From: a virus
Virus record (IMG/VR): IMGVR_UViG_3300032144_000038
Location: 1-26,294 of that record
Reading direction: 5' to 3' (one strand)
Length of the DNA: 26,294 nucleotides
Shown piece after piece: positions 7,148-24,023 of this stretch. Numbering within the stretch: position 1 is the stretch's first letter; every line of letters begins with the position of its first letter. The position numbers were made by a program, and so were the translations under genes. The notes beneath the pieces were generated by a model. The model did no database searches. It was not told the origin of the DNA and worked only from the letters and a program-made list of their open reading frames with translations.

Positions 7148-9241
7148 TCACACCGTCCCGAGCGCCAGGTCGACGTCGCCGCCGAACCGGGTCCGGATCT
7201 GCTCCTTCAACTGGCCAACCAGCATGAGGATCAGCGGATCCGACGACGCGATCTCGACTCGCTGCGGTGCTGGCGCCGCCGTCGCCGCGTAGGCCACACC
7301 GGAGCGGATCGCGTCATAGATCTCATCCACCGGGGCGATCACCTCAGGCCGGCCAGCCTCCGCGACCCGCACGATGGATCCGCCCGGCGACGCGCCGACC
7401 ACACCGCCGTGGGCCATCGCAACCGGGCCACCCCGGGACGTCCCCGGGCGGTTTCCGACGGACGGGCCGATCGCCTTCCCGGTGCCCTGCTTCGTCGGGC
7501 CGACGGTCTTCGACCGGCCGATCCCTGGGATGTGCGGGATGTCGTTGAACGGGTTGATTAGGTTCAGGCCGTCAATGACCACGTTGATGCCGTCGATCAT
7601 CGCGTTCAGGATGCCCTTGATGACCTCCCACGCGGCCACGAACGGGGCCGCCAGGATGTCCTTGACCAACCCCCACGCCGCGGCGATGTCGTCACGCAGA
7701 CCGGTGAACCAGCCAGTGATCCCGGCCCACACACCCGCGATCCAGTTCCACGCGTCCCGGAACGGCTTCGTGATCGCGTCACCGACACCGGCCCAGTCCA
7801 CGCCGATCAGCCAGTCGACGAACCCGCCGAACAGGTCGACGACCCATCGCAGCGGCTTCAGTATCTCGGCGATCGCTTTGCTAATGTCCTTGATCATCGG
7901 GGCGAGGAACTTCGCCGCCAGGAAGCTGGCCCACGCCGACGCGAGCGCGATCATCGGGCCGATGATGTCCAGCGCCAGCACCAGCAGATCGGTGAGCACC
8001 GGCAGGATCGGCAGCAGCGCCTCCAGCACCGCGATCAGCGGCGGCACCAGCTTGTCCACGACCGGGGCCAGCTTCAGGATCGCAGGCATCAGCGCCTTGA
8101 CGATCTCGACGACCACCTTCGCCAGCACCGGCAGCAGCGGCCCGAGCGCCGCGAACAACTCACCGAACGCCTCACCCAGCGGCGCGATCACCGGCGTGAT
8201 CTCGGTCAGCACACCGGAGATCGCATCCAGGATCGGGCCGATCACCGGCGCCAGGCCCTGCGCGACCGCGCCGATCATCGGCAGCAGCGACGTCAGCAGC
8301 CCACCCAGGGCCGGCGCGATCTGGTCGATCGCATCACCCAGGATCGGCGTCACATCCGCCATCGCCTGCTTGATCGCAGGGATGACCGGGGTGAACGCGT
8401 TCGTCAACGCCAGGCCGATGGTGTCCTTGAACGCGGCGAAGACACCCGACAGGGTCTGCGCCTGCTTCTCCATCGCCCCGGCCGCACCGGGGAACTGGCC
8501 CATCCCCTTCAGCAGCGCGTTGATGCCAGTCGTGGCATCGACCTCGCCCTTGGTGATCATCTCCAGGGCTTCGGAGACCGGCACCCCAAGCTCAGCCGCA
8601 ATCGCCGCGTTCGCGTTGAACCCAGGCAGCGCCTCGGCCAGCTGCAGGATCTCCTCCTGCGACAGCTTGCCCTTCGACGCCATCTGACCCAGCGCCCGGA
8701 CAACCGAGTCGACGTTCTCCTGCGTACCGCCCAGAACCGCGACCAGATCACCGATCGTGGTCAACGTCGGGATGACCTCGTCGCGGGCGATGCCGACCGA
8801 CTTGCCGAACGCCAGGATCCGCCGCGACGCGTCCGCCACACCGGAGAACTCGAATGGCGTCGTCTTCGCGAACTCCTGCAGCTCGCCGAGGAACACCTTC
8901 GCGTCCTCAGCCGAACCCAGCAGAGCCTCGATACCGACCGTGGTCTGCTCGAGCGCCGCCGCGGACTTCAAACCGAACCCGGTCAACGCCGCCAGACCCG
9001 CGGCCGTGGCCGCACCGCCGATGACGAGGCCGGTCTTGAGGATCTGACCGATGCGACCCATGCCCGACTTGAGCGAGTCGCCCATGCGGGAGCCGAACGT
9101 CTTGCCGGCCTTGTCGCCGGCCTCGGCGACAACCGGGTCGACCGTGCCGAGCTCGCGGCGCATGTCGGCCTTCAGCTTGGCCGAGAAGCCCTTCAGTGAA
9201 GGCACGATGGAGACGAACGCCTGGCCCACTTCGTCGGCCAC
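7148..9241 (-). CDS. Tape measure protein
   Basis: A 697-residue protein. Residues 1-90 contain the usual opening AFVSIVPSLKGFSAKLKADM and a Gly/Ala-rich hydrophobic segment (TGLVIGGAATAAGLAALTGF). Residues about 95-275 match the tape-measure N-terminal domain (TTPFEFSGVADASRRILAFG, SQEEILQLAEALPG). The middle is a long hydrophobic run rich in Pro-x-(I/L) repeats, followed by a Trp-rich region (WNWIAGVWAGITGWFTGL) and a C-terminus with GGVVGASPGGSIVRVAEAGR, typical of actinophage tape measures. The length suggests a tail of about 100 nm, using the usual 0.15 nm per residue. It starts with GTG 9241 after GGGGGGTGA and lies immediately behind the chaperone frameshift gene. Confidence 0.95.
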   Translation of the reverse strand: MADEVGQAFVSIVPSLKGFSAKLKADMRRELGTVDPVVAEAGDKAGKTFGSRMGDSLKSGMGRIGQILKTGLVIGGAATAAGLAALTGFGLKSAAALEQTTVGIEALLGSAEDAKVFLGELQEFAKTTPFEFSGVADASRRILAFGKSVGIARDEVIPTLTTIGDLVAVLGGTQENVDSVVRALGQMASKGKLSQEEILQLAEALPGFNANAAIAAELGVPVSEALEMITKGEVDATTGINALLKGMGQFPGAAGAMEKQAQTLSGVFAAFKDTIGLALTNAFTPVIPAIKQAMADVTPILGDAIDQIAPALGGLLTSLLPMIGAVAQGLAPVIGPILDAISGVLTEITPVIAPLGEAFGELFAALGPLLPVLAKVVVEIVKALMPAILKLAPVVDKLVPPLIAVLEALLPILPVLTDLLVLALDIIGPMIALASAWASFLAAKFLAPMIKDISKAIAEILKPLRWVVDLFGGFVDWLIGVDWAGVGDAITKPFRDAWNWIAGVWAGITGWFTGLRDDIAAAWGLVKDILAAPFVAAWEVIKGILNAMIDGINVVIDGLNLINPFNDIPHIPGIGRSKTVGPTKQGTGKAIGPSVGNRPGTSRGGPVAMAHGGVVGASPGGSIVRVAEAGRPEVIAPVDEIYDAIRSGVAYAATAAPAPQRVEIASSDPLILMLVGQLKEQIRTRFGGDVDLALGTV

Positions 9242-9244
9242 GGC

Positions 9245-9993
9245 TCACCCCCCTGCGGCGAAGACTCCGGTCCGGTACCGCTCGAGGAGCGCTTTCACTT
9301 CATCCGGGTCGCGGCCGTCGACCTCGCCGACCCGCTCCACGTCCCGCCGCTTGGCCAGCGGCGAGATCGGGTCCGGGCGTTTCGCGCCGCGTTTGCCCTG
9401 CCGCTGCCAGTTCCCCACCGCGATCCGGTCAGCGATCACCGCGAGCAGGTGCTGATCCAAGGACCAGTCGTCGCGGGTGAGCTTGCGGTGCAGCAACGTC
9501 CCCGGCGTCGCCGCAAGCGACCGGACCAGCACGGCCAGGCGCCGCCAGGACAGGCCGCGGCCGAGCCGGTTCAGCTGGTCCTGCGGGCCCGCCCGGAACG
9601 CGAGATCGGCTTCGACTGCCTCGCCGTGCTCGCGGAGGAACGCGACGAGGGGGCCGATTTTCCCTGGGTGCCCTGCCTGTTCATCCACTCGCGCAGCAGT
9701 GGCATCAGCTGCAGGGCGGACAGGGTGGTCCTGCCGTCCGGGCCGCCCTTGGTGGCACCCAGCTGCGCCAGGAGTTCGTCGCCGATCATCAGCCGCAGGA
9801 TGTGCAGGATCTGCGTCGGCCGCGGATCGTCGGCCTCTTCGATCTCGGCCAGCGCGTCGATGATGTTGGCCTGACGGTCGATCGGCATGGCCAGCAGTGG
9901 CGGGAGCTCGAACTTCTCGGTGCCCCAGGTGAAGACGAACGGCTCTTCGGGGGCCTCGGTGACGACGGCGTTGAGGTCGAACGGTTGGGACAT
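9245..9993 (-). CDS. Tail assembly chaperone, -1 frameshift fusion (G-T type)
   Basis: Ribosomes that slip back one base at GGGAAAA (9664 to 9658) continue from the 112th codon of the upstream chaperone into a 137-codon reading frame ending at 9245. The fusion is about 249 residues. The extension reads on as GKIGPLVAFLREHGEAVEA and contains an RLSWRR-like and YRTGVFAAGG region before the stop 3 bases short of the tape measure start. The arrangement of major tail protein, two overlapping frames with a slippery site, then tape measure is the conserved siphovirus chaperone layout. The extended product binds the tape measure protein during tail assembly in studied phages. The annotation as one gene requires a join at 9658. 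Confidence 0.85.
9571..9993 (-). CDS. Tail assembly chaperone, zero-frame product (G type)
   Basis: A 140-residue protein with a fold-bearing N-terminal part (PEEPFVFTWGTEKFELPPLL; DALAEIEEADDPRPTQILHI; LRLMIGDELLAQLGATKGG) and a low-complexity Ser/Arg/Ala tail after the slippery site, which is what remains when no frameshift takes place. AGGAGA sits 7 bases before ATG 9993. This short form is normally made in excess over the fusion. Confidence 0.85.
   Translation of the reverse strand: MSQPFDLNAVVTEAPEEPFVFTWGTEKFELPPLLAMPIDRQANIIDALAEIEEADDPRPTQILHILRLMIGDELLAQLGATKGGPDGRTTLSALQLMPLLREWMNRQGTQGKSAPSSRSSASTARQSKPISRSGRARRTS
9658..9664 (-). other. Slippery heptamer for -1 programmed frameshifting
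   Basis: On the minus strand the zero frame reads CAG GGA AAA TCG, a G-GGA-AAA heptamer of the XXXYYYZ type. After slippage the codons are GGG AAA ATC GGC, entering the long downstream frame exactly where it becomes coding-like. The following bases are GC-rich (GGCCCCCTCGTCGCG) and could pair, but I did not define a stimulatory structure. Confidence 0.85.
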
Positions 9994-10023
9994 GCGCAGA
10001 TCTCCTTACGGGTGCGCAGATCT
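9993..10023. repeat. Direct repeat TGCGCAGATCT before the chaperone gene
   Basis: TGCGCAGATCT occurs at 9993-10003 and 10013-10023, 20 bases apart, flanking the chaperone ribosome site. It is probably a small local duplication; a function is not evident. Confidence 0.5.
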
Positions 10024-10031
10024 GGTTTGGG

Positions 10032-10067
10032 CCCACCGGCGTGGACCTGCGCGAACACGCCGGTGGG
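10032..10067 (-). terminator. Hairpin between major tail protein and chaperone genes
   Basis: CCCACCGGCGTG (10032-10043) pairs perfectly with CACGCCGGTGGG (10056-10067), a 12-bp stem with a 12-base loop, between the stop at 10112 and the next start at 9993. A partial terminator here would keep tail-tube transcript above that of the chaperones and tape measure, as in many phages. Confidence 0.65.
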
Positions 10068-10111
10068 GGCACTAGATGAACGGAGGCCCGCCCAAGACAT
10101 CGACTGATGTC

Positions 10112-10669
10112 TCAGGAATACCCCCAGTTGGCGTCATCGGTGAAAACCTTGAACGGGGCGCCGAGGGTGTCGTGGTAGTAGGCGGTGATCGTCACGCCGA
10201 AACCGATCGGCTCACCGTTGGCGTAGACGATCTCGCCACGCTCGGTCACCTCACCGCGGGGGATGTAGTACCGCTTGTGGATCGACCCGTCGAGGACGTC
10301 GAAGACGAACGCCCGCTCATCCGGGTTCGTCGCATCGGGCAGCAGCGACCACTGGCCAGCCGACACGACCGCGACGCTGCCGCGGTAGTAGAGCTCGGCG
10401 ACCTTGCCCTTGGACTCGATGAGCGCGCACTGGAATGTCCAGTCGAGCTCGGTGCGGGTCGTGCGGACGCGGGCGCTGTTCTGCCAGGCGCGGATGGCCT
10501 GGACGGACTCGTTCGGCGTGACGGTGACGCCGTCCTCGCCGACGTAGCCGAGCCCGGTGAACGCGGCGTCCAGCGAGCTCGTCGAGGTGGTGGGTCCGGT
10601 GCTGCCGACGGCAGCCACACTCAATTCCCCGGTGATGCCGACCCGGACGTGGGTCGCGAACAAACTCAT
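10112..10669 (-). CDS. Major tail (tube) protein
   Basis: A 185-residue protein of beta-rich composition. Near the N-terminus are VRVGITGELSVAAVGSTGP and later FTGLGYVGEDGVTVTPNES, the 'GY-x-x-EDG-(V/I)' stretch typical of actinophage tail tube subunits. The second half has YIPRGEVTERGEIVYANGEP, which is also family-typical, and ends in a strand (GVTITAYYHDTLGAPFKVF). GGAGG lies 8 bases before ATG 10669, one of the best ribosome sites in the window, as expected for an abundant protein. Between the tail terminator gene and chaperones, the position fits perfectly. A strong hairpin follows. Confidence 0.9.
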   Translation of the reverse strand: MSLFATHVRVGITGELSVAAVGSTGPTTSTSSLDAAFTGLGYVGEDGVTVTPNESVQAIRAWQNSARVRTTRTELDWTFQCALIESKGKVAELYYRGSVAVVSAGQWSLLPDATNPDERAFVFDVLDGSIHKRYYIPRGEVTERGEIVYANGEPIGFGVTITAYYHDTLGAPFKVFTDDANWGYS

Positions 10670-10733: not shown

Positions 10734-11126
10734 TCAGTAGGTCACTGCGTCGTTGGCACGCAGCAGAAGGGAGTACGTGGCCCAGCGGGCGAAGTTGTTG
10801 GGCACCAGCGGGTCGTCGTACTGCCGTGGGGACATGAACTCGTCGACCCGGTAGCAGACGACACCGCCGAGAAGTGTCGTGCCCTGCAGGGCGTGCAGTT
10901 GCCGCCGGACCAGTTCCCCGCCGGCGAAGGCGGCCGGTTCGGTCGCGGCCCAGTAGAGGACGTCCAGGCGGGCCGAGTCCCGCACGGGCGGCATCCACGC
11001 CCCGCCGACCTGGCGGACCTGGATCAGCTCGGCGGGCCGGGGGTTGGGGATGCGCGATTTGACCGGCACGCTGTGGAGGCTGTCGAGGTAGGCGATGACC
11101 AGGCCGACTGCGTCAGGGAAGGCCAC
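10734..11126 (-). CDS. Tail terminator-like protein
   Basis: A 130-residue protein directly upstream of the tail tube gene, the position of the tail terminator that caps the tube and joins it to the connector. The N-terminus (MAFPDAVGLVIAYLDSLHSV) followed by RIPNPRPAELIQVRQVGG is the usual pattern of these proteins in actinophages, in which an N-terminal helix precedes a beta-sheet (RLDVLYWAATEP) and a helix starting AFAGGELVRRQLHAL. GTG 11126 follows the preceding stop by 2 bases and is preceded by GGGGGT. Assignment rests on position and layout, without a diagnostic motif. Confidence 0.7.
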   Translation of the reverse strand: MAFPDAVGLVIAYLDSLHSVPVKSRIPNPRPAELIQVRQVGGAWMPPVRDSARLDVLYWAATEPAAFAGGELVRRQLHALQGTTLLGGVVCYRVDEFMSPRQYDDPLVPNNFARWATYSLLLRANDAVTY

Positions 11127-11128
11127 GG

Positions 11129-11428
11129 CTACCCCCTTGCTGCGTCGAGTGCGCCGCCGAGGATGCGGTGGTCCGCCTCGATCCGCAGCGCCGCCGGATG
11201 CCGTGCGATGACCGCGACCCGGGCGCGGGGCTCGTTCGTGTCGGAGTCGACCTGCAGCACCTCAACGACCGGCGCGATGCTCGAGTCGGCCAGCGCCGCA
11301 GTGAAGCCCGCCTGCGCCACCACAGCAACCCGGTCGGCGCGGCGCTCCAGCATCTCGTCCACCTCGGGGGAGTTGCGCAGCGCCTTGAGGCCGCGGCGGT
11401 TGGGCTTGTAGTCGACCAGCTTCGCCAT
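11129..11428 (-). CDS. Head-tail / neck protein (HK97 gp10-like candidate)
   Basis: A 99-residue protein: a basic N-terminal helix region (YKPNRRGLKALRNSPEVDEM), a long helix with RRADRVAVVAQAGF, and a C-terminal part with beta strands (ARVAVIARHPAALRIEADHRI) and a helix that ends in the stop. This helical start plus 'RAxxVAxxA' and terminal strand pattern is that of small minor capsid or gp10-like proteins at the same place in other siphoviruses. GGAGGG precedes the ATG at 11428, which is one base after the previous stop, so the upstream in-frame extension to 11509 is rejected. Confidence 0.65.
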   Translation of the reverse strand: MAKLVDYKPNRRGLKALRNSPEVDEMLERRADRVAVVAQAGFTAALADSSIAPVVEVLQVDSDTNEPRARVAVIARHPAALRIEADHRILGGALDAARG

Positions 11429-11768: not shown

Positions 11769-11947
11769 CGCTTGTCCCGTTCCGCGCTCTCGGCGCAGTC
11801 GCGCAACTGTGCCCAGATCGCCAGCAGCGCATGGACCTGCGCGGCCGCAATGGGATCGAACTCGCCACGCTTGGCGTCCTGCAGCATCCGCTCAGCAGTG
11901 GCGGCCTCATCTGCAGCGCCCTGCCGCCAGTGCCCGTCGGCGGTCAC
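11765..11947 (-). CDS. Small hypothetical protein in the connector block
   Basis: A 60-residue, largely helical and charged protein (ADEAATAERMLQDAKRGEF; AAAQVHALLAIWAQLRDCAE). GTG 11947 overlaps the connector stop in GTGA and its own stop overlaps the next start in ATGA, so it is coupled on both sides. The family is not recognised; similarly small helical proteins are frequent at this place in actinophage genomes. A capsid-decorating or chaperone role cannot be decided. Confidence 0.6.
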   Translation of the reverse strand: MTADGHWRQGAADEAATAERMLQDAKRGEFDPIAAAQVHALLAIWAQLRDCAESAERDKR

Positions 11948-12576
11948 AGACGCACCTGCACGCTGCGGGCGGGCCGTGGGCCGTAGCCGGCCTCGCGGAG
12001 TTCCTGCTTGTCCTGCTCCGTCAGCCGCACAGTCGGCCCAGCCGCGCCGGCGCTGTTCTGCTGCATCCCATACGAGTACTGGCCGACCCGCTCGGTGTTC
12101 ATGCCCTCGGTCGCGCTCGGCGAAAGAATTGCCCGAAGCACCATGCCGCAGCAGATGCGCACCACGTCACCCGGGACAGGCGCCTCGTCGTAGTCGTACA
12201 GGATCTGGAACGACTCGGGCCCATCCGACCACGGCCACCAGGGGTCTGCGCTCCAGCTGAACCCGACCCTGGTGATGTCGATCCGGTCGACGCCGTCAAA
12301 CGCCCAGCCGGTGAGTGGATCTCCGGGCGTGCCGTCGATGTTGATGCCGCGAACCTCGTGCACCTCGATGGCCGGCGCCGGCGGCAGTTCCAAGAACGCG
12401 CCGACTGGACGGAGGGTCACGGTGGCGTTGGTGACCGCGGCGAACTGCCGCTTGGTGTAGGTCCGGATCCGCGCGGACGCGTCCCCCAGGAGAGTCGTTG
12501 CGCGGGTCTGTTCGCCCGCGGTGAGAGTGCGCGGAGAACGGGCGTTGACGTCAGAGATAGTGGCCAGGTCCGCCAC
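11944..12576 (-). CDS. Head-tail connector (Gp19/gp6-like adaptor)
   Basis: A 210-residue protein. After a short N-terminal acidic stretch comes a helical region (TAGEQTRATTLLGDASARIR), then a beta strand region with VTLRPVGAFLELPPAPAIEV and WSADPWWPWSDGPESFQILY. The helices around VRICCGMVLRAIL and SYGMQQN follow, the pattern of Gp19/Gp15/Gp42-like connector proteins (PF09355 type). The GTG at 12576 is favoured because GAGGGGG precedes it by 6 bases; the GTG at 12600 lacks this. It overlaps the last glycosyltransferase by 26 bases, so the glycosylation cassette is fused tightly into the head-tail operon. Confidence 0.8.
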   Translation of the reverse strand: MADLATISDVNARSPRTLTAGEQTRATTLLGDASARIRTYTKRQFAAVTNATVTLRPVGAFLELPPAPAIEVHEVRGINIDGTPGDPLTGWAFDGVDRIDITRVGFSWSADPWWPWSDGPESFQILYDYDEAPVPGDVVRICCGMVLRAILSPSATEGMNTERVGQYSYGMQQNSAGAAGPTVRLTEQDKQELREAGYGPRPARSVQVRL

Positions 12577-13231
12577 GTCGCACCCCCTCGATGTACTCAC
12601 GCATCCGGCCCTCGCGGGCGGCCGTCTGGTAGTCCGTGCAGCGGGCGATGTTCGCCGCGGTCATCTCCGGGGTGCCGTGCCGGTCGGGGTGCCACAGCGC
12701 CCACGCCTCGCCCACACCGTCGCCGCGGCCGTCCGGGTAGAGGGCGAACAGCACGGCCTTGAAAGCGGTGTCCTCTGCGCCCCAGCCCTCAAAGCGTTCG
12801 TCCATCCCGCCGACGTCGTCCCACACCTCGGCGCGAAGGGCGACGATGCCCTCGCACGCGTGGATGACGTGCGACTTCATCACCGGTGTCGGCAGCTGTC
12901 CCCGGAGGATTCGCGCGGTGCGGTCTGGGGCGAAGATGCGCGTCAACGCGTAGACCGCTGTCCACGGATGCTGCCGCAGTCGGTCGGCGATCCAGGCGAG
13001 CTTGTCGGGCGTGGGTGGAATATGGTCGGCGCCGAAGATCGCCAGATACTCGCCGGTCGCCTGCCGCCTGGCCTTGTTCACGGCGCGGGCCAGCGAGAAC
13101 GGGCCTTCCGTACGGTCGTCGTCGGCGACGCACAGCTGCACGCCTGACGCTTCCCACCGGGCGCGGTTGTAGTCCCAGGCGAGGATGCGGTGCAGGTCCT
13201 GCGACCGCCACGGGATCAGGACGGAGATCAC
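12551..13231 (-). CDS. GT-A fold glycosyltransferase with GT7C-type motif (copy 2)
   Basis: A 226-residue protein. It starts ISVLIPWRSQD, a nucleotide-binding beta strand, and contains DDDRTEGPFSLARAVNKAR and a GADH motif (67-70) in the place of the DXD metal site. The C-terminal motif GGMDERFEGWGAEDTAF (141-157) is that of galactosyltransferase-type GT7C/GT27 domains, in which E-D is catalytic. It is a paralogue of the gene at 13228: same length, same order of motifs. GTG 13231 overlaps the previous stop as GTGA. Donor and acceptor sugars are unknown; it probably acts in the host cytoplasm on a phage protein or glycan. Confidence 0.75.
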   Translation of the reverse strand: MISVLIPWRSQDLHRILAWDYNRARWEASGVQLCVADDDRTEGPFSLARAVNKARRQATGEYLAIFGADHIPPTPDKLAWIADRLRQHPWTAVYALTRIFAPDRTARILRGQLPTPVMKSHVIHACEGIVALRAEVWDDVGGMDERFEGWGAEDTAFKAVLFALYPDGRGDGVGEAWALWHPDRHGTPEMTAANIARCTDYQTAAREGRMREYIEGVRRGGPGHYL

Positions 13232-13896
13232 GGCCGGTCCAGGTAGAAGCCGCGCATCGCATCGGCGGTGGCGGTGTGCGGCTGGTACGTCTGCCAGATC
13301 TGGCCGTTGGCGGGCCACGCCTCTTTGGTCACCTCGGGGTGCCACAGCGACTGGAACATGCCCTCGGCCGGGGTGTCGCAGCCGTCGGGGTAGACGGTGC
13401 GCAGGACCAGGTGAAACGCGAGGTCTTCCCAGCCCCAGCCGACGAACCGTTCGTCGTAGCCGCGCAGGCTGTCGAACACGTCGGCGCGGATCCCGATCAG
13501 CGCCTCACGGCCCATCGAGACCTCGCCGGCCGGGGCGCCCACCGACTCCGGGGTGTCACCGTTGAGAATCTGCCGGGTCTGGTGTCGCGTGAACCGACGC
13601 TGACCATCGAAGAGCACCGACCAGGGCAGGCCGGCGGCCAGATCCTTGTGGAGCCGATCGAGAGACGCCACGGACAGCGGCAGGGCGTCGGTGTTGTAGA
13701 CCAGCAGGCAGTCCGCGTCGGTCATGGCGCGGGCCCGGTTCGCGGCCCGGGAGAACGAGAACAGCGGCCCGTCCAGGCCGTCGTCGGCGTACACCACTTG
13801 CAGGTCGGTCCGCTCCCACAGCTTCGAGGTGGTCGCCTGGATGCGTGCCCGCCATGGCGTGTCCGGCCGGAACGGGATAAGAACGGCGAGGGTCAC
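13228..13896 (-). CDS. GT-A fold glycosyltransferase with GT7C-type motif (copy 1)
   Basis: A 222-residue protein: MTLAVLIPFRPDTPWRA at the N-terminus, YADDGLDGPLFSFSRAANRA, NTDA (68-71) as the likely metal-binding site, and GYDERFVGWGWEDLAF (146-161), the clear GT7C/GT27-type motif. There is no signal peptide or membrane anchor. Its first codon overlaps the formyltransferase stop as ATGA. Together with copy 2 it forms a tandem duplicated pair, which may add two different sugars or act as a heterodimer (inference). Confidence 0.75.
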   Translation of the reverse strand: MTLAVLIPFRPDTPWRARIQATTSKLWERTDLQVVYADDGLDGPLFSFSRAANRARAMTDADCLLVYNTDALPLSVASLDRLHKDLAAGLPWSVLFDGQRRFTRHQTRQILNGDTPESVGAPAGEVSMGREALIGIRADVFDSLRGYDERFVGWGWEDLAFHLVLRTVYPDGCDTPAEGMFQSLWHPEVTKEAWPANGQIWQTYQPHTATADAMRGFYLDRP

Positions 13897-14537
13897 GACT
13901 GCGCCCGCGTCCAGTTGGCCCGCTCGCCCAACTCGGCCATGGCGGCGGTGTTGTAGTAGCCCGCCCGGGACTCGTCCTGCGGCACGGCCTTGACCTGGTC
14001 AACGATCGGGATCACCTCACGCAGCAGGCCCTCACCGGCATGCACCGCGCGCCGGTAGACGTCGCGGACCTCGTCACGGTCGGGCCAGATGCTGAACGTG
14101 GCCTGCGCGACGATCGGCCCGGTGTCGATGCCGGTGTCCACCTCGTGCAGCGTCACGCCGGCGACCGACTCGCCGTTCTTCAGCGCCCAGTTGATGGGCC
14201 GCATGCCGCGGTACTCGGGCAGCTTGCCGAGGTGCAGGTTCAGGATGCGGGCCGGCCCGTCGATCAACGCGGCGCCGATGATCCGGTCGTACATGACCGA
14301 CAGGATCAGGTCGACGTCCATGCCGACCAGGGACCGCCAGTGTCCCGACCTGTTGACCGGGATGGTCGGGAAGAACCGGCGCACATGCTCCGACAGAACG
14401 GAGCCGGCCGGGGTGAGGTCCCATGCCGGCTCGACCCAGTTGGTCACCACGGCACGCACCTCGTAGCCTGCGCCGAGGCAGGTGTTCAGCGCGATCGCGC
14501 CCAGGTGCCCACGGCCGAGGATCGCGACCGTGGTCAT
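13893..14537 (-). CDS. Formyltransferase-fold enzyme
   Basis: A 214-residue protein. MTTVAILGRGHLGAIAL is a Rossmann-like start. The formyltransferase signature is present: N100 and H102 in NLHLGKLPEYRGMRPINWAL and D138 in EVDTGIDTGPIV. These match the Asn-His-Asp triad of methionyl-tRNA and sugar-nucleotide formyltransferases, which transfer the formyl group of 10-formyltetrahydrofolate to an amine. The protein lacks the C-terminal domain of methionyl-tRNA formyltransferase, so an amino-sugar or other amine acceptor is more likely than initiator tRNA. The start at ATG 14537 overlaps the GT4 stop as ATGA. Context points to making an N-formylated sugar for the adjacent glycosyltransferases. 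Confidence 0.75.
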   Translation of the reverse strand: MTTVAILGRGHLGAIALNTCLGAGYEVRAVVTNWVEPAWDLTPAGSVLSEHVRRFFPTIPVNRSGHWRSLVGMDVDLILSVMYDRIIGAALIDGPARILNLHLGKLPEYRGMRPINWALKNGESVAGVTLHEVDTGIDTGPIVAQATFSIWPDRDEVRDVYRRAVHAGEGLLREVIPIVDQVKAVPQDESRAGYYNTAAMAELGERANWTRAQS

Positions 14538-15580
14538 CGGTGCGACCTGCGCGAGGCCAGACGTTCGACCGCTTCGACCCACCGCGCCTCGTCCTCGACC
14601 CGGTCGAGCTCGTGCTCGGCCGTGCGTGCCAACGCCGCGGCCCGCGCCTTCGCGTACTCGTCCGGGTCGGCGAGGCGCCGCAGCTCGCGCTCATAGCCGT
14701 CTGTGTCGTTGCGGTCGACGAAGATCCCGGCGTCGCCGAGGTTCTCGGTCAGCCACGGCGTGGGGTGGGCGATCACCGGGATGCCCGAACACAGCGCCTC
14801 GGTCGCGGCGCGGCCCCACGACTCGTACGAGCTCGGCATCAGCAGCACCCGCGTGCGGGACCACACCCGGTCGCGCATCTCGCCGTTCGGCACCTGCGCC
14901 AGAACGTCCACATTCGGCAGACCCGACATGTCCTGCTGCGGGCCGTAGCTGCCGGTCACGCCGAGGAACTTCGTGTCCGGCATCTGCTCAGCGAGGCGGC
15001 GGAACAGTTCGCCACCCTTGCCGGTCACGTGACCGTCGGGGGCGGGAAACTCCTTGCTCATGTTGACCAGCGCCACCCGGTCACCGGGCGTCGTGGCATG
15101 CTCGTCCGGGTCGACGACAGGGTGATGAATGATGACCTCAGGCATCGGCCCGATGCGGCGGGGCTTCTGCCGGCCGACCCACTCCCGGAAGTCTTCGGCC
15201 ATCCACTGCGAGTTGACGACCAGCAGCGACACCTCGCCCTGCGGTGCCATCGTCGCCTTGTAGTTGGCCCGGAAGTTGTTGTGACTCAGGATCACGACCG
15301 GCTTGCGGTTCCACTTCCCCAGCGCCGCCGCCGGCGGCGTGTTCGCCAAGTGGGCGACGACCACATCCGAGTCCAGCAGCCGATCAAGGGAGACCTTCTT
15401 GTCCTGCCGCGGGTGGACGGTGACGCCGTCGATCTCGTACGGGTCGCCGGTCTGAACGGACAGGTTCATGTCCACCTGGTGCCCGGCGGCCACGAGGGCG
15501 CGGAGCATGCCGTGCAGCATGGTCTCCGCGCCAGCGTTGTGGCCCGGCAGGTAGGCGTGCGTCATCGCCAGGACGCGCAC
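14534..15580 (-). CDS. Family 4-type glycosyltransferase (GT-B fold)
   Basis: A 348-residue protein. The N-terminal half starts MRVLAMTHAYLPGHNAGAET, the usual strand and glycine-rich acceptor region of GT4 enzymes. The C-terminal half has GKGG (187-190) and ESWGRAATE (E253 to E261), the E-x7-E donor-binding motif, then ALCSGIPVIAHPTPW. It should transfer a sugar from an NDP donor. It lies 4 bases after the small protein gene that follows the major capsid gene, opening the glycosylation cassette. Actinophage glycosyltransferases next to virion genes have been linked to capsid or tail glycosylation; target and sugar here are inferred, not shown. Confidence 0.8.
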   Translation of the reverse strand: MRVLAMTHAYLPGHNAGAETMLHGMLRALVAAGHQVDMNLSVQTGDPYEIDGVTVHPRQDKKVSLDRLLDSDVVVAHLANTPPAAALGKWNRKPVVILSHNNFRANYKATMAPQGEVSLLVVNSQWMAEDFREWVGRQKPRRIGPMPEVIIHHPVVDPDEHATTPGDRVALVNMSKEFPAPDGHVTGKGGELFRRLAEQMPDTKFLGVTGSYGPQQDMSGLPNVDVLAQVPNGEMRDRVWSRTRVLLMPSSYESWGRAATEALCSGIPVIAHPTPWLTENLGDAGIFVDRNDTDGYERELRRLADPDEYAKARAAALARTAEHELDRVEDEARWVEAVERLASRRSHR

Positions 15581-15584
15581 GGCC

Positions 15585-15950
15585 CTACGCCTCGGTGGAC
15601 TCGGGGGCCTTGACCGGCTTGGGCGCCGGCTTGGTCATCTTGGCCGGGGCCGCCTCAACAGGCTCAGGCTCGACGGCCAGCGCCGCCTCCACGACGGGAG
15701 GCGGCGCGGCCACCACGGGAGGAGCCGTGTAGCGCTCCCACCTGCGGGACTGGTCCATCTTGGTCAGCGTCTGCCGCTGGTGCAGCGCCCGCGACCGGGC
15801 CTTGTCCATGACGAGCTCGCCATCGACCCGGTCGCGCTTGGTGCCCTTGCGGACGAGGCGCTCCGCCTCGGCCTCCGCCGCAGCCATGATGTCTGCCGGC
15901 TCGGGCACCTCAACGACGTGGCCCTTCAGGGTGTTCCGGTAGGTGAGCAC
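15585..15950 (-). CDS. Small protein behind the capsid gene
   Basis: A 121-residue protein: N-terminus LTYRNTLKGHVVEVPEPADI, then a charged helix, an RRWERYTAPP motif and a long Pro/Ala/Lys/Val-rich tail. The 'YRN-x-(L)-(x)G' opening and 'M-x-x-S-x-RWE-R' stretch resemble small head proteins that follow the major capsid gene in actinophages. AGGAGG precedes GTG 15950. The Pro/Ala-rich tail is mostly disordered and, like linkers in other phage decoration proteins, might be a glycan acceptor region (few Ser/Thr, so a weak case). Confidence 0.65.
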   Translation of the reverse strand: MLTYRNTLKGHVVEVPEPADIMAAAEAEAERLVRKGTKRDRVDGELVMDKARSRALHQRQTLTKMDQSRRWERYTAPPVVAAPPPVVEAALAVEPEPVEAAPAKMTKPAPKPVKAPESTEA

Positions 15951-15988: not shown

Positions 15989-16855
15989 CTAGCTGGAAGC
16001 CCCGCCGGTGGTGATCTTCACGACCCGGTCGGCGTCGACGAGAGCCGCGCCAGCGAAGGTCGAGACGACCGACGCGTCCGACAGGAAGTCGGGCGCGTAC
16101 TGGAAGATCTGCCGCATGCCGACGCCGCCCTCGGTGGCGGTCGCCGAGTCGGCCGCACCACGCGGGGTTACCGGGGTCCGGTTCGCGAACGCGAACCCGG
16201 ACTCGTGGTAGGCCACGGCGGTGCCGGCGGTGAGGCCGTTGGACTCCACGACGGTGAAGCCGTAGAACCGGCCGATGATGGCGTCACGCAGCGCCGACGC
16301 CGTGCCTGCCGCGTCGACCCGGCTGAGCTTGTCCAGCTTCAGCAGGTACGTCGCGACGGCCGGGGACACCGCGAGCCAGCGGCCACCGGTGGGCACGTCG
16401 GCCTCGCCGAGGATCTCGCGGGCCTCGAGCACGATGGTCTCGACGTTGGCGCCGCCCGACGCGATGGACAGGTCCATCGCCAGGGTGTTCATCACGCCGG
16501 CGATCTGGTCCTCGGCCCGGGTCGCGACCGCGGCCACCTGGACGCGGGTGACCTGCTCGGCGAACGCCTCGAGCTCCAGCGACATCGACTCGTCGGTGAC
16601 CTTCGTCGCGTGGTAGAGGTGCTCCAGCGTCACGTCGACCGGGGTCTCCGAGATCGTGTCGTAGTCGATCTGCGTGCCGGCCGAGGACTGGGTGCGGGCG
16701 GTGCCGGGCTGCGGAACCCGGACGGTGATGGTGTCGCCGTTGCTGCCCGCGAACTCCTCGCCCGGAATCCGGGTGCAGGTCATCGGGAGCACCAACGTGC
16801 GGGTGAGCAGGGCGATGCCCGTCCGGGCGATCCCCTTGGCAGTCAGAAACGCCAT
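15989..16855 (-). CDS. Major capsid protein (P22 coat-like)
   Basis: A 288-residue protein. MAFLTAKGIARTGIALLTRT followed by NGDTITVRVPQPGTART and ISETPVDVTLEHLYHATKVT is the pattern of P22 coat-like major capsid proteins of actinophages (HK97 fold). The later part has ADVPTGGRWLAVSPAVA and the end VSTFAGAALVDADRVVKITT. GGAGGT lies 8 bases before ATG 16855, a strong site for an abundant protein. Scaffold immediately upstream and connector genes downstream agree. A stem-loop precedes the gene. Confidence 0.9.
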   Translation of the reverse strand: MAFLTAKGIARTGIALLTRTLVLPMTCTRIPGEEFAGSNGDTITVRVPQPGTARTQSSAGTQIDYDTISETPVDVTLEHLYHATKVTDESMSLELEAFAEQVTRVQVAAVATRAEDQIAGVMNTLAMDLSIASGGANVETIVLEAREILGEADVPTGGRWLAVSPAVATYLLKLDKLSRVDAAGTASALRDAIIGRFYGFTVVESNGLTAGTAVAYHESGFAFANRTPVTPRGAADSATATEGGVGMRQIFQYAPDFLSDASVVSTFAGAALVDADRVVKITTGGASS

Positions 16856-18011: not shown

Positions 18012-18269
18012 CTAGGTGGGCCAGGCGCCGACCCGTCGCGGGTCGGGCATCGCCTCGAATTCGGGGAAGGACAGCGGGGTCAGGCGGCCGGTGCGCTTGT
18101 CGACCAGGAACGCGTAGACACCCATCACGCCGTCCCAGTCGACCATCGGCACCCAGGCGGTCCCGGTGTCGAAGCCGTACGTCAGCACCGCCGGGGACTC
18201 CCGCTCGTCGGTGTAGAGCTCGTCCAGGTGCCGGGCCAGGGTCTGCCGCGCCTCGTCGAAGGTCCTCAT
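18012..18269 (-). CDS. Candidate immunity protein for the Tox-PL toxin domain
   Basis: An 85-residue protein whose ATG (18269) overlaps the stop of the giant MuF-toxin gene as ATGA, the classic arrangement of a toxin and its cognate immunity gene. After an N-terminal helix (FDEARQTLARHLDELY) it has beta-rich blocks: AVLTYGFDTGTAWVPMV, then VYAFLVDKRTGRLTPLS and a C-terminal helix. 'LVDK-x-TG-x-(L/V)' resembles the closing strands of Imm35/YrhB-type immunity proteins, a family seen next to papain-like toxins. Similarity is by eye. Alternatives: a structural head protein or a chaperone for the giant protein. Tandem hairpins follow, so the pair ends a transcription segment. Confidence 0.55.
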   Translation of the reverse strand: MRTFDEARQTLARHLDELYTDERESPAVLTYGFDTGTAWVPMVDWDGVMGVYAFLVDKRTGRLTPLSFPEFEAMPDPRRVGAWPT

Positions 18270-21200
18270 GGGTACCTGTCGTCCGGGGTCATCTCGGCCA
18301 TCTCCTCGAACGTCGACCACCGGTCCAGGGCCGGGTCCTGCGGGTACTCGGTCTTGGCCACCAGTCCGTCGGCGATGTCGAGCTCGGGGGCTTCCACGTA
18401 GTGCAGGCCGTAGTCGGACAGGTCCAGGTCGTCGATGCGGGCCACGGCCATCCACTTGTCGGTCGGCGCCCCGCGCGCCTGCGCCCGGCGCTGGAACGCG
18501 GCCAGGTTCATCACCGGGTTCTTCGACGCCGCGGACTGGGCGTCGATGAACACGGCCTTGCCGGTGACCATGTCCCGCTCGACGTTGATCGTGTGACCCT
18601 GCATGGTGACGATCCCGCGTGCGCCACGCGGCCATGACTCCACCTCGGCGGCGACCTGCCGGGCGGACATGCTGCGGCCCAGGTCGTCGGCGACGCGGGT
18701 CGCGTACTTCCCGTCCAGGCGGAAGGTCCGCACGTAGGAGGCGGTCGTCTCGCCGAGCGGCGTCCCGGCACCGGCGGTCACCCTGATCCCGCGGCGGCGC
18801 ATCTCGTACGCGATCACCACGCGGGTGCAGTTCTGCGTGTAGGTCGCGGCGCCTGCGCGTTCGATCTCCGGCGTCATCGGCCCGTTGTAGGCCTGCCCGT
18901 AGCGCGGGTTCGCGGCCATCGCCTGGGTGCGGATGTCCTGCGGGTCGGTGACCTTCGGCAGCCGCGACGCCTGCGGGCTGAGCTTCCCGGAGTCCACCGG
19001 CGGACCAGCCGGGGGCGGGGTGGTCTTCTTCGCCGCCTTGGCAGGTGCGGCCGGGCTTGCCTTTGCGGGCGTGGCCTTGGCGGGCGCCGCCTTGGGTGCG
19101 GCCTTCTTCGCCGCCGCAACGGCGGATCGTTCTGCCGCGATAACGCGCTTCTCTACCTCGCGCAGGCGGCGGAGTGCCGACCGGTGCCAGGCCGGATGAC
19201 CGGCGTCCCGGAACAGCGGCTCCAGCGCTTCAAGCCGCTCGCGGAACACCCGTATCTCGGCCGACGTGAACTCGGGGATCTCTCTCCGGAGGCCGAAGCT
19301 GTCGCGGAGGAAGCGAGTAAATTCCGCGCCCCCCGCGGGGAAGCGGGTGCCCTCCAGGACCGAGAACGCCTGGCCGTGGTCGATGGCGACGATGCGGCCG
19401 CCAGGCGTGATGATGAAGTTCCCAGAGCCCCGGTCCGGGTTTCCCATGACGTAGTCGGCCAAGCCGAGGCGGCGACCCTCCGGGGTATCCGCTAGCTCGG
19501 CGAACTTACGCATCGTGGCCTGGTGCTGAGCCTCTTCGCCTGCGCGGAACTTGAAGGTGTCGCCATATCGTTCCGTGAAGCTCTCGCCAGGCACGAACTC
19601 CTGGATCAGCTCGTCGCGGTGGCGGCCACGGCCCGTGGCTGCGGCCCGAACGTCGAACGCCTCCACAACCTGAGGGGCCAGCACCTCGGCATCTGCGTCG
19701 ACGCCAGGCTTGCGTCGAATAGCGTCCGGGCTGGACGTGGAGTAGTCCTTGCGGACCAGGCGCTGACCGTCCGCGTAGGTCTCCAGTGTGGGGGCCGCGC
19801 TGACTCCCCCCTCCAGTCGCCGCGAACTCGTCGGCTCGCCGTCGGCGACGCGCTCCAGCCTGGCCACGCGGGCGTCGTAGGCCGCGTCCGAGGTAGCAGG
19901 CCTCTGGGTCGCCGTCGGGGCGGCCTTCTTGACGGGCGCCGTCTTGCTGGCCCGGGCCGCCTTCGCTGCACCGGCCCGAGTCGCGGCCACGCGCGCCTGG
20001 TCCTTGCCGAGGATCGACACCACGTTGCGCTCGACCATGGTGCGCAGTTCGTCCTTCGACGAGCTACGGATCCACGCCAGCACGTCCGCGCCTGGGGCTC
20101 CGGCGTCGATGTTCCGCAGCCGGGCCACGATGGAGACCAACTCGTCCTTGTTGAAGTCGTGCCAGTCCAGGTACCGGCCCACCGACTCGACGTCCAGGGT
20201 CGCCAGGACCTCAGCGTGATCGAAGGCACCCTTGCCCTCAACCTCACCGGAGATCCGGCCACCGGCCTGGCCCTGCCGCGCCTTGGTGCGCACCGGGGCA
20301 CGGTCCGGCGCCGTCCACGACTGGCCGGTGGCGGGCGTTGCGGCCTTGCGCGGCGCCGCCTTCTTGGCCGCCTTCACCGGCCCGAGAATGGTGCGCGTTC
20401 CAACGGCGCGAGCTTCGATGTCGTCGAGGTTCCGAAGCATCGCGTCGTACCAGTCCTGCCGACCGCGGGCGACGAACTCCGGCTGTAGCGCTTCGAGCCT
20501 CGCCCGGATCACAGCGAGATCCTGAGGCGCAAGGTCGATCGACTCATGGAGCCGCCGGGCATGAAGACCGACGTGGCGGTTCGGCGATAGATAGTCGGCA
20601 AACTCGGTAGAGAGGCCGCGCGTGCGCATACTGCCGCCGGTCGCGACGAAGGCCGATGTGTGGTCGATTACCGCGAGGCGACCGTTCGCCAGTCGGATCC
20701 AGTTACCGTTGCGGTCCGAGTTGTGCATGAGGAAGTCGGCGAGGCCGATCAGCTTCCCGTCATCACTACCTACGACCGCAGCCGGAATTGCCGCGTCGCG
20801 TCGGGCCACGGTTCCAGGGATGAACTCCATGCCGACCGCGTTGTCCGCAACACGGACCACCGTGGGAGCACGTACCCCGACCGCGTCGGCTATGCGAGCA
20901 CCCAACTCCTCGGCATCCACGCGACGCAGGGCGTCGTGGTCGAAGGACTTATGGACGGCCTTACGGCCGTCTGGCGCCGTGACCAGAGTGGTCTTGCCCT
21001 GCTGGCCCTGCTCAAGAGCCTGCGTCTTCGATCCCGGCTGTTCGATAACGTCACGGACTGCCTGCTGCCGTTGGGCGTACGTCGGGGTCATGGTGCCACC
21101 TCGAGCAGCCTTCGCCGCCTTCACCGGGGACGCCGCGCGTGCAGCCGCCAGGATGTCATCCCCGGCGCGGGCGGCACGCTCCACCGCTACCGCCGTACGG

Positions 21201-22534
21201 GCCATCCGCGACGCCGCCTCAAACTCGGCCGCCAGGATCTCGTCACCAGCCCAGGCGCGGGGCATCGGCAACGACAGGTCCACATCCCCGCCAGGACGCC
21301 GCCACACGTACCGGGCCGTGGCCGCATCCGCCGAACCGGCCAGCACATTCCCGGCCGCGTCCACCGGAACGATGTCCTCGTTCACCCGCCGCAGCGACGT
21401 GCGCATCCGCGACGTCACCGCACGGGCCGACGCGCCGTTCGCGGCGAGCTCACCCACCAGACCCAGCTGCGCCGTAGCGGCACGACGGGCCTCGTAGACG
21501 CTGAGCTCTTCCGGGGTGAGCATCGGCGAGGACTCGGGGCGAAGCTTTCGGGGAGTGGCCTTCGCAGGGGCGGTCTTCGTCGCGGCCTTGGCGGCCTTCA
21601 CCGGGGCGGGTGCGCCGAGCGCGTCGACCAGCTCCTGCTTGCGCATCTTCGCCACGCCCGGGATGCCCTGCTGCCGGGCCATCGCCTGCAGCTCCGGCAC
21701 CGTCAGCCGCGACAGGTCCACATCGCCGGCGAGACGAGTCACCTCAGCCGCGCGCCGCGATGGCTCGGCGACCCCGAACCGGCGGCGGGCGGCGGGGGTC
21801 GCCTTGGTCTCCCAATGCCGGCGCCAAACCCGCCGCGCATCAGCGCCACTGTGGCCGGCGGTGACCCGACTCCATTGTGCCTGCAGCAGTCTGACCTCGG
21901 CCGGCTCCTGCTCGCGCCGGTATAGCGGCTCCGCCCAGCAGTGGCAGTGGTCGTGGTAGCGGGTGCCTCGGCTAGCCACCGTTGCCGACGCCTTCGAGAC
22001 GTACACGGCACCGCGGCTGGCCAGCATGGCGCAGAACCCACACGCCCGGCCCGACAACCGCCGGCGCCAGCCGACAACGCCGCGGCCCTCGGTCGCGGTC
22101 CGCTCCACTACATCCCGATCACCAGCGCGCACTGTGCGGTCGGCGACCCCGCCCATCTGCGTCGCCATCGACCGCAGCGCCGCTTCTGTATCAGCACCGC
22201 CCGCGATGGCCGTCTTGAACGCCACGGGTCCGGTCACCTGCAGCGAGGTCCGCAACGCCCCAGCATTCATGGACCCCGGCACCATCTCCAACCCCGACGC
22301 CCCAGATAGGGCGGCGTGGCGAGGTAGGAACGACATCGCCGAACCGCGTGTCTGGGCGTAACCGAACGCGATCCGCGACACCAGGCCGTCAACGGCACCC
22401 CAGTACCAGGTCGAGATGTCCGCCGGGTCCGCGCCCAGTGCCGTCTGCACCACCACCGACGTGACGCCGGCAGCGACGGTGGCTACCTCACGCTGATGCC
22501 GCTGCGCGAGCCGATCGGCGGCGAGCGTTGCCAT
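18266..22534 (-). CDS. MuF-type head protein fused to two kinase-like domains and a papain-like toxin
   Basis: A 1422-residue protein. Residues 1-210: MuF head-morphogenesis domain with the metal-site pattern CGFC (165-168) and HDHCHC (194-199). Residues 273-308: Rho-N/SAP-like helix pair. About 500-705: first kinase-like domain, K529, catalytic loop HNSDRNGNW (604-612), metal motif VIDH (D624). About 765-845: helical KDEL-repeat linker domain. About 910-1130: second kinase-like domain, K929, GNPDRGSGNF (1031-1040), AIDHGQAF (D1052). About 1180-1380: Tox-PL papain-fold domain with NCTRVV (C1236), QGHTINV (H1314) and FIDAQS (D1331). Ala-Lys-Pro linkers join the parts. GGAGG 6 bases before ATG 22534 fixes the start. 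MuF fusions to toxins are known; the tandem kinase-like domains are unusual. It is likely packaged and ejected into the host (inference). Confidence 0.8.
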   Translation of the reverse strand: MATLAADRLAQRHQREVATVAAGVTSVVVQTALGADPADISTWYWGAVDGLVSRIAFGYAQTRGSAMSFLPRHAALSGASGLEMVPGSMNAGALRTSLQVTGPVAFKTAIAGGADTEAALRSMATQMGGVADRTVRAGDRDVVERTATEGRGVVGWRRRLSGRACGFCAMLASRGAVYVSKASATVASRGTRYHDHCHCWAEPLYRREQEPAEVRLLQAQWSRVTAGHSGADARRVWRRHWETKATPAARRRFGVAEPSRRAAEVTRLAGDVDLSRLTVPELQAMARQQGIPGVAKMRKQELVDALGAPAPVKAAKAATKTAPAKATPRKLRPESSPMLTPEELSVYEARRAATAQLGLVGELAANGASARAVTSRMRTSLRRVNEDIVPVDAAGNVLAGSADAATARYVWRRPGGDVDLSLPMPRAWAGDEILAAEFEAASRMARTAVAVERAARAGDDILAAARAASPVKAAKAARGGTMTPTYAQRQQAVRDVIEQPGSKTQALEQGQQGKTTLVTAPDGRKAVHKSFDHDALRRVDAEELGARIADAVGVRAPTVVRVADNAVGMEFIPGTVARRDAAIPAAVVGSDDGKLIGLADFLMHNSDRNGNWIRLANGRLAVIDHTSAFVATGGSMRTRGLSTEFADYLSPNRHVGLHARRLHESIDLAPQDLAVIRARLEALQPEFVARGRQDWYDAMLRNLDDIEARAVGTRTILGPVKAAKKAAPRKAATPATGQSWTAPDRAPVRTKARQGQAGGRISGEVEGKGAFDHAEVLATLDVESVGRYLDWHDFNKDELVSIVARLRNIDAGAPGADVLAWIRSSSKDELRTMVERNVVSILGKDQARVAATRAGAAKAARASKTAPVKKAAPTATQRPATSDAAYDARVARLERVADGEPTSSRRLEGGVSAAPTLETYADGQRLVRKDYSTSSPDAIRRKPGVDADAEVLAPQVVEAFDVRAAATGRGRHRDELIQEFVPGESFTERYGDTFKFRAGEEAQHQATMRKFAELADTPEGRRLGLADYVMGNPDRGSGNFIITPGGRIVAIDHGQAFSVLEGTRFPAGGAEFTRFLRDSFGLRREIPEFTSAEIRVFRERLEALEPLFRDAGHPAWHRSALRRLREVEKRVIAAERSAVAAAKKAAPKAAPAKATPAKASPAAPAKAAKKTTPPPAGPPVDSGKLSPQASRLPKVTDPQDIRTQAMAANPRYGQAYNGPMTPEIERAGAATYTQNCTRVVIAYEMRRRGIRVTAGAGTPLGETTASYVRTFRLDGKYATRVADDLGRSMSARQVAAEVESWPRGARGIVTMQGHTINVERDMVTGKAVFIDAQSAASKNPVMNLAAFQRRAQARGAPTDKWMAVARIDDLDLSDYGLHYVEAPELDIADGLVAKTEYPQDPALDRWSTFEEMAEMTPDDRYP

Positions 22535-24023
22535 TCGGCGCCTCCGCGGTCTCGTCGGCAAGCGGCGCAACCCGTCGCGTCACCGCGTTCAACTCGTCGA
22601 CAGCCGCCTGCTCAGCGAGGGCAGCTGCGGCCTTCTCTGCCGCCTCGGCCTCGGCGGCGTCGCGGAGCCCGTCATCCTCAGCTGCCATCTGCTCCCAGCG
22701 CTTCAGGTCCTGGTCGGTCACGCCCGGCCACTTCTCCCACATGGCCCGCGGCGGGATCGACAGCATCTGAACACCCTTGCCGAGCCCGTCCACGACCTGG
22801 CCCAGCGACTGAGGCCGGGTGTCGCGCCACACGACCTGGGCGGACATGTCCTCCCATGCCCTCTCGTCATCCATGGCCTTGCCGCACAGGCGCATCATCT
22901 GCTCGACCGACTCGCCGAAACTGGTCTGATGCTCGGCGATGTCCTGCCGGTGCCCCGCCGCCAGAAGCTCCAGCGCCTCGGCCGGCACGTTCGAGATACC
23001 CGACCCGATCACCAGGTTCTGTGGCGGAACCTGCGCCACTGAGGACATGTGCAGGAGCACCTTGTCCCGCGAGTCCAGGTAGCCCGACACGTCGGTCTGC
23101 GAGAACTCCCCGAACTTCATATCCGGTGACGTGCCGGCCAGGATCTGGTCGACAGCGACGTTGAACAGCGGCGGCGTCGGGCTGCCCTTGTCGTCGACCT
23201 GCACTTCCATGCCGGTCACGTACCGCTGCCGGAACGCCGCATACTGCAGCGCCATCGCAAGACTGAAGGTGATCTGGTTGACTTGCTGCTGCAACCACAG
23301 CAGCGGTTCGACCTTGCCGCACGGCACGCCCAGGTCGTAACGGTCCCGGTACCTGACCACGGGCGTCACCGTCAGGTCGTGCTCCTCGACGCTCACAATC
23401 CGCGGATCGAGGTCGCCGGTGCTGGGCAACTCCACGGTGTAGACGGCCTCATCGTCGAAGAGCCGCACCGTCATCAGCTTGCGCCGCTCCGACGTCGCAC
23501 CGTACGCGACCACCCGCTCGTACTGGACCTCCATCGCCAGCTGCGGCCACTCGTCATTCGTGGGGTCCGCGTACAGCGCCGTCATCCGGCACGCCGACAT
23601 CGGCGTAATCACCGGCACCGGATCCCCAGGGAGCACCAGCGCATACGACGTGCCATGCCGGATCGCCGCCCGGTAAAGAGCGGCCTGGCGGGCGTCCATC
23701 CGGTTCGGCTGCCAAACGGCGTCCCACACCGGGGCGTTCTTCGTGTCCGGCGCCCGGCCAGACTTGCCTGTCGGGCGGAACCCATCGACGAACAGGTTCT
23801 GTGCCAGGGCGGTCACCACGAGATCGAGCACGTTGAAGCGGGACTGCTCCACCAGCATCCGGTACTCGCGCGACGCCCGCCGCGGCACGTAGACGCCGGC
23901 GGCCTGACCGGAGACACCATCCGCCAGCGCCCGGTCAATACGCCTCAGGCGAGGCTGCTCCTTGTCGCGGGCGTCGCGCAGCGCCCCGAGAGCGTCCTTG
24001 ATGCCATCAGCTGACAGGGGCAC
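22488..24023 (-). CDS. Portal protein (SPP1 gp6-like)
   Basis: A 511-residue protein between large terminase and the MuF protein. YVPRRASREYRMLVEQSRFN with VVTALAQNLFVDGFRP is the conserved opening of actinophage portal proteins of the Gp6 family (PF05133). Further on are VWQPNRMDARQAALYRAAIR, the stem-like segment with WLQQQVNQITFSLAMALQYA, and SSVAQVPPQNLVIG, then a long helical C-terminus. The start is taken at GTG 24023 because GGGGG lies 7 bases upstream; the TTG at 24041 gives 517 residues and overlaps the terminase stop. It forms the dodecameric channel through which DNA enters and leaves. Its 3' end overlaps the MuF gene by 47 bases. Confidence 0.9.
   Translation of the reverse strand: MPLSADGIKDALGALRDARDKEQPRLRRIDRALADGVSGQAAGVYVPRRASREYRMLVEQSRFNVLDLVVTALAQNLFVDGFRPTGKSGRAPDTKNAPVWDAVWQPNRMDARQAALYRAAIRHGTSYALVLPGDPVPVITPMSACRMTALYADPTNDEWPQLAMEVQYERVVAYGATSERRKLMTVRLFDDEAVYTVELPSTGDLDPRIVSVEEHDLTVTPVVRYRDRYDLGVPCGKVEPLLWLQQQVNQITFSLAMALQYAAFRQRYVTGMEVQVDDKGSPTPPLFNVAVDQILAGTSPDMKFGEFSQTDVSGYLDSRDKVLLHMSSVAQVPPQNLVIGSGISNVPAEALELLAAGHRQDIAEHQTSFGESVEQMMRLCGKAMDDERAWEDMSAQVVWRDTRPQSLGQVVDGLGKGVQMLSIPPRAMWEKWPGVTDQDLKRWEQMAAEDDGLRDAAEAEAAEKAAAALAEQAAVDELNAVTRRVAPLADETAEAPNGNARRRSARAAASA

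Follow-up and report, generated by a model that had tools for sequence, protein, structure and literature searches.

A likely exchangeable virion glycosylation cassette between the capsid and connector genes of an actinomycete-type siphophage

Why would a phage keep genes of sugar-transferring enzymes within its virion assembly genes, and what would these enzymes modify? The stretch of DNA analysed here (the window) is a viral contig of 26 kb (26,294 nucleotides) from an actinomycete-type siphophage. Its morphogenesis operon on the minus strand runs from terminase, portal, MuF-type protease, scaffold and capsid over a 121-aa protein into a four-gene block, and continues behind it with connector, head closure, tail terminator, tail tube, chaperones, tape measure and tail genes. 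Based on comparison with relatives, and without any biochemical or mass data, we consider it likely that this block is an exchangeable virion O-glycosylation locus adding an N-formylated sugar. Elsewhere in the window we noted an excisionase-like protein on the plus strand (1832-2458; phrog_733, 1e-9), which hints at a temperate phage, an endonuclease VII-like stretch (residues 276-319) within the 1434-aa MuF/protease-type protein (18266-22570), and two overlapping tail assembly chaperone ORFs (9245-10072 and 9571-9993), probably a programmed frameshift pair.

The cassette lies between capsid and connector and encodes, in order of translation and all on the minus strand, a GT4 glycosyltransferase of GT-B fold (14534-15580, 348 aa), a sugar N-formyltransferase-like protein of the ArnA N-domain type (13893-14537, 214 aa) and two GT-A enzymes with a GT7C motif, named 'a' (13228-13896, 222 aa, GWGWED motif) and 'b' (12551-13231, 226 aa, GWGAED motif). 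A first-pass annotation had proposed exactly these four enzymes, and this part held, as all four genes are real. Their GC content and codon-position GC are those of the flanks, and dN/dS values of 0.30–0.58 against homologues, without stops, show that they are maintained and are not chance ORFs. Reading the junctions directly also confirmed the proposed translational coupling through an ATGA (14537-14534) and two GTGA overlaps (13896-13893 and 13231-13228), as well as the 26-base overlap of GT-A 'b' with the connector (adaptor Ad1, 11944-12576, minus strand; phrog_137, 8.9e-22), which forms the downstream border of the slot and whose start at 12576 is supported by relatives (alignment A5). The claim that all genes are linked by overlaps had to be corrected at the GT4 start, where a 4-base gap (15584-15581) separates GT4 from the gene of the 121-aa protein (15585-15950, minus strand). 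For the formyltransferase a longer ORF start (14582) sits upstream of the likely ATG.

The identity of the enzymes and their catalytic motifs are shown, while catalysis itself is inferred. GT4 matches Glycos_transf_1 (1.7e-9), Glyco_transf_4 (3.9e-8) and phrog_26352 (5e-100) and has an intact E-x7-E motif (ESWGRAATE), so that the test for group-1/GT4 domains plus EX7E is met. The formyltransferase matches Formyl_trans_N (1.5e-23), the ArnA N-domain (1.7e-22) and the NCBIfam ArnA model (3.3e-27) and keeps the N-x-H and D catalytic residues (NLH, VDTGIDTG). The N-terminal formyltransferase of ArnA, acting on UDP-4-amino-arabinose, is its closest solved homologue and shares the catalytic N, H and D residues, but the window protein with its 214 aa lacks the dehydrogenase half and its substrate is undetermined. 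Both GT-A enzymes belong to phrog_1721 ('a' with 3e-12, 'b' with 8e-18); for GT7C 'b' scores 30 bits, and 'a' only 18.4 bits, below the Pfam cut-off of 23 bits. A structure model of 'b' (pLDDT 75) resembles beta-1,4-galactosyltransferase 7, GalNAc-T2 and the chondroitin and heparosan synthases (Z up to 13.7). With the GWGxED motif and the GT-A fold both present, the pair fits the class of GT7C-motif GT-A enzymes. A complete DXD motif is absent from the pair, which shows NTD and GAD at this position; since only the last Asp is kept, we regard the two as probably, though not certainly, active. The GT-A homologues in two related contigs (L019 and L047) have DGD there. As lone queries, 'b' found no relatives in viral contigs and 'a' none in annotated phages, and relatives of the pair could only be found by profile searches. 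None of the cassette proteins has a transmembrane segment.

The position of the cassette was then compared among relatives. A GT4 profile search found 25 contigs, and in nearly all of them GT4 sits ahead of the connector and immediately behind the capsid gene, or behind a small gene next to the latter. About 20 contigs with three capsid families share this slot, which persists in those whose capsid belongs to the Phage_capsid or SU10 family, and in 8/8 contigs there is one group-1 glycosyltransferase per contig. The link to the slot is not absolute, as in L137 GT4 is located behind the head-closure gene. The divergence of GT4 tracks that of the portal and of the tail tube (Spearman 0.84 and 0.75, respectively), from which we conclude that GT4 is older than the capsid replacement. 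As GT4 outlasts this replacement and follows portal and tail tube, a capsid acting as the only acceptor is unlikely. Cassette-less relatives, which the first-pass annotation had suggested looking for, do exist: a direct capsid-connector junction was found in six contigs (L027, L032, L034, L035, L037 and L038), and in L141 only a small protein lies between capsid and connector.

What follows GT4 is exchanged among relatives, being of a formyl type, an epimerase type, a methyl type or nothing at all. The close relative L019 (capsid 91% identical) has capsid, a homologue of the 121-aa protein, GT4 (77%) and a different GT-A, followed by two SDR epimerases, a GT2 and a further glycosyltransferase before the connector, whereas L014, a Micromonosporaceae MAG contig (capsid 77%, GT4 61%), shows GT4, a methyltransferase and the connector. 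Formyl-type (type I) cassettes with GT4, formyltransferase and GT-A are found in the window, L094/L105, L097/L098 and L095; their formyltransferases are 64–70% identical, and homologues of GT-A 'a' (55–62%) follow directly after the formyltransferase or its sugar genes. Epimerase-type cassettes are present in L019, L099, L100 and L101, and partly in L082. Both types occur in both main capsid lineages, and SDR1 is 83% identical between these lineages compared with 40–60% for backbone proteins, showing that the modules move. Slot conservation and block exchange are thus shown, and the view of a block that is accessory yet fixed in the late operon is only partly right, since GT4 alone is fixed in the lineage and the rest is swapped. 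In L091/L095 the formyltransferase is accompanied by a Gfo/Idh/MocA oxidoreductase and a WxcM-type amino-sugar N-acetyltransferase (E 2e-44), and in L095 these neighbours point to an amino sugar as formyl acceptor, inferred from gene context only. No amino-sugar aminotransferase (DegT) was found in eight related contigs, so that the sugar to be formylated has to be supplied by the host or by another source.

A wider survey with the capsid profile gave 50 loci. In some of them the capsid-connector or neck region contains other sugar genes, namely those of GT32-like enzymes, FkbM and other methyltransferases, NTP-transferase, Stealth-like enzymes, pyruvyl transferase and GT2, and in others the connector comes straight after the capsid. 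In L139 (IMG isolate 2675903061), having a window-like portal, connector and tail, a GT32/FkbM-type set replaces GT4. When 301 genomes of the host family were searched for prophages, nothing came up besides the contig already known and a single capsid-GT4 pair with 37% identity.

Which particle proteins could be the acceptors is suggested by their C-termini. Among the structural proteins of the window only two end in serine, a residue that is last in about 16% of called genes: the major capsid protein of P22-coat/Phage_capsid_2 type (15989-16855, minus strand; ...KITTGGASS, terminal Ser codon 15992-15994) and the major tail tube protein (10112-10669, minus strand; phrog_117, 1.2e-41; ...DDANWGYS, Tyr-Ser codons 10115-10120). 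In GT4 contigs all complete tail tubes of this lineage end with [W/F]GYS, and the Phage_capsid-type capsids of L062, L065 and the L094 group end with YTYS, YSYS or YDYS, so that the Tyr-Ser end is common to capsid and tail tube although the two proteins are unrelated. In total 37/463 called genes of GT4 contigs (a count including redundant contigs) end with Tyr-Ser, all of them capsid or tail tube, compared with 0/527 genes of the comparison contigs; an aromatic-Ser end was likewise seen in no other called gene of the GT4 contigs and in 0/527 of the comparison genes. The GT4-less relatives L141 and L144 have tail tubes ending with DPTP, and in L139 with its other sugar set both capsid and tail tube end with GS. 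A counter-example is the SU10-type capsid of L064, which ends with LYF.

The same trend holds beyond the GT4 contigs. In the capsid survey all 11 loci that have sugar genes, and none of the 9 that lack them, show a tail tube with Ser end (Fisher 6e-6, a value that ignores relatedness, with four of the nine sugar-less loci being near-identical). Among annotated phages such a tail tube was found in 7/7 with glycosyltransferases and 1/8 without (p 0.0012), and the corresponding numbers for the capsid are 6/7 and 1/8 (p 0.009). Both proteins are Ser-ended in Che8, Brujita, JangDynasty (representing the cluster of Corndog in this comparison), TChen, GMA2 and P1312, only the tail protein is in Baka (capsid ending PSF), and neither is in Tortellini, CactusJack, prophiGD33-1, D29, TM4, Samty and Yang. 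Xeno is an exception, having the Ser end without a recognisable glycosyltransferase, and several distant tails are Ser-ended, yet no sugar gene was found nearby. Shared ancestry of tails and capsids within lineages and near-duplicate contigs mean that the p-values overstate independence. The signature itself is shown; the acceptor residue is inferred from it, and the tail-tube structure model is too poor to place the C-terminus (mean pLDDT 59).

These data also bear on other targets. The 121-aa protein, with an Ala/Pro-rich tail ending STEA, homologues in L019 and L014 and no family match in Pfam, PHROG or NCBIfam searches, had been named as a possible acceptor by the first-pass annotation, which failed: it is absent where other capsids keep GT4 and has no Ser end, and the C-terminal serines of tail tube and capsid are the likely acceptors. 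More generally it could be argued that the target is some other virion protein, such as this one or an accessory decoration protein in the slot of relatives, and accessory proteins with decoration-like gene position indeed lie beside GT4 in L064, L067 and L070/L099. Against this stand the same two observations on the 121-aa protein and the restriction of the Tyr-Ser end to capsid and tail-tube genes, which leave this explanation very improbable.

Alternatively, the enzymes could modify glycans of the host wall or surface and thereby alter the receptor against re-adsorption or superinfection, as serotype-converting phages do. Phage glycosyltransferases often act in this way (PMC12619734), surface glycans are abundant in the host family, and Stealth-like, pyruvyl-transferase and polysaccharide-type enzymes are found in related slots. 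However, no GtrA flippase was found in the window or five related contigs, and without membrane segments in the cassette proteins the criterion for a Gtr-type system (GtrA flippase plus membrane glycosyltransferase) is not met. Moreover, coupling of translation to the connector would allow only late expression, and this reading gives no account of the Ser signature at the C-termini of capsid and tail tube. We thus regard this alternative as unlikely and prefer modification of the virion.

Glycosylation of virions is known from mycobacteriophages. In Che8, Corndog and Myrna proteins are glycosylated, and phage glycosyltransferases act on capsid and tail tube (PMC12363180, PMC11600133), with the glycans sitting at the C-termini of both (PMC12619734); this O-glycosylation goes back to Freeman et al. 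2023 (via PMC12363180, PMC11600133, PMC12619734 and PMC11652166). According to its abstract, that work reportedly found the subunits of capsid and tail tube to bear O-linked glycans at their C terminus, and it may already define the exact glycosylated residue. Our own literature search gave nothing relevant on a phage glycan locus with a formyltransferase, nor on a C-terminal serine. As in Che8, a glycosyltransferase cluster is phage-encoded in the window, and homology of the GT-A pair to Che8 gp109, the middle one of three adjacent glycosyltransferase genes, is shown (hhalign E 6e-19, both phrog_1721). Capsid and tail of Che8 (...KTGS and ...SDGS) are Ser-ended like those of the window. The Che8 cluster is located at the right end of the genome and not inside the capsid-connector operon, and the window differs further by its N-formyltransferase, its relatives by their sugar-building enzymes. 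An argument against virion glycosylation is that the initiating enzyme would be of a different family than in Che8: GT4 shows no match to gp108 and alignment A3 gave none to gp110, although the initiating glycosyltransferase of Che8 is not established. Between its capsid and its head-to-tail adaptor, the cluster J mycobacteriophage Baka (gp13-gp20) carries a methyltransferase and glycosyltransferases, one of which is a phrog_1721 member, but neither a GT4 of the window's family nor a formyltransferase was seen. Streptomyces phage TurkishDelight has a tandem GT4 (gp20, 38% to the window GT4) between capsid and major tail genes, but as a single fused gene without formyl or GT-A partners and with another capsid type.

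That the GT-A enzymes group with Che8 gp109 rather than with known DNA glycosyltransferases also speaks against a glycosylation of phage DNA bases as protection from host nucleases. Virus glycosyltransferases hypermodifying DNA are known (cited in PMC12619734), but the cassette genes sit within the morphogenesis operon and no thymidylate-synthase-type gene for hydroxymethylated bases, which covers this route only, was found in the window or five related contigs. We consider this explanation very unlikely.

Virion glycosylation, already hypothesised in the first-pass annotation, is therefore supported by comparison but not by biochemistry, and a glycan on virion proteins remains inferred. In the proposed model the cassette enzymes would be made late in infection, alongside the virion proteins. 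GT4, a soluble enzyme and the putative initiating protein glycosyltransferase, would transfer the first sugar onto the C-terminal serine hydroxyl of the tail-tube subunit (-Tyr-Ser), the main acceptor, and probably also of the capsid subunit (-Gly-Gly-Ala-Ser-Ser), and the two GT-A enzymes would then extend or branch it. The formyltransferase is predicted to N-formylate an amino sugar, most likely a host-made nucleotide sugar, giving a formamido sugar in the glycan. Step order and sugar identity are inferred, as is the benefit, which might be shielding or an altered adsorption or stability. Masking of epitopes, also suggested earlier, has been reported for mycobacteriophages (PMC11652166, PMC12363180) and is for the window phage a suggestion without data. 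With the block behind GT4 being swapped, virions of otherwise similar phages should show different glycan types.

A bolder reading, to which we give even chances, is that of a virion 'serotype' locus in actinomycete phages: a glycosyltransferase would recognise a free C-terminal Tyr-Ser (more broadly Ser) tag on two unrelated particle proteins, and exchangeable formyl, epimerase, methyl, pyruvyl or Stealth-like modules, shuffled among phages by recombination, would determine which glycan type the particle has, in the manner of bacterial O-antigen loci. Bacterial O-antigen and capsule clusters share the conserved first glycosyltransferase with exchangeable downstream sugar modules, but the window cassette lacks polymerase, flippase and lipid carrier enzymes and its proposed acceptor is a protein. 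As virion glycosylation has been documented so far for a few mycobacteriophages, the locus suggests that it is modular, varied and common across a wider set of actinomycete phages, and formyl or other unusual sugars on particles would bear on the adsorption, stability and recognition of phages. The C-terminal signature may predict from sequence alone which phages and which of their proteins are glycosylated, and Tyr-Ser is a two-residue tag that can be tested by mass spectrometry.

Some further genes were observed in the corresponding region of relatives. Putative sugar-phosphate transferases resembling Stealth_CR2 (weak Pfam matches) lie directly behind the capsid in L017, L024, L039, L048 and L051, and L017 has a nitroreductase-family gene between capsid and connector (10889-11416). 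The capsid-connector interval of L058 encodes a fusion of a methyltransferase with a CTP-dependent riboflavin kinase domain (7323-8234; PF01982, 1.6e-11). Encoded behind the capsid or sugar genes are a protein of L030 (8440-9768) whose C-terminus resembles the DNA-binding protein Lsr2 (PF23359, 2.8e-12) and a protein of L014 (10117-10533) whose ending is similar by eye, and the head-closure protein (Hc1) of L014 (12704-14404) carries an N-terminal extension of ~450 aa.
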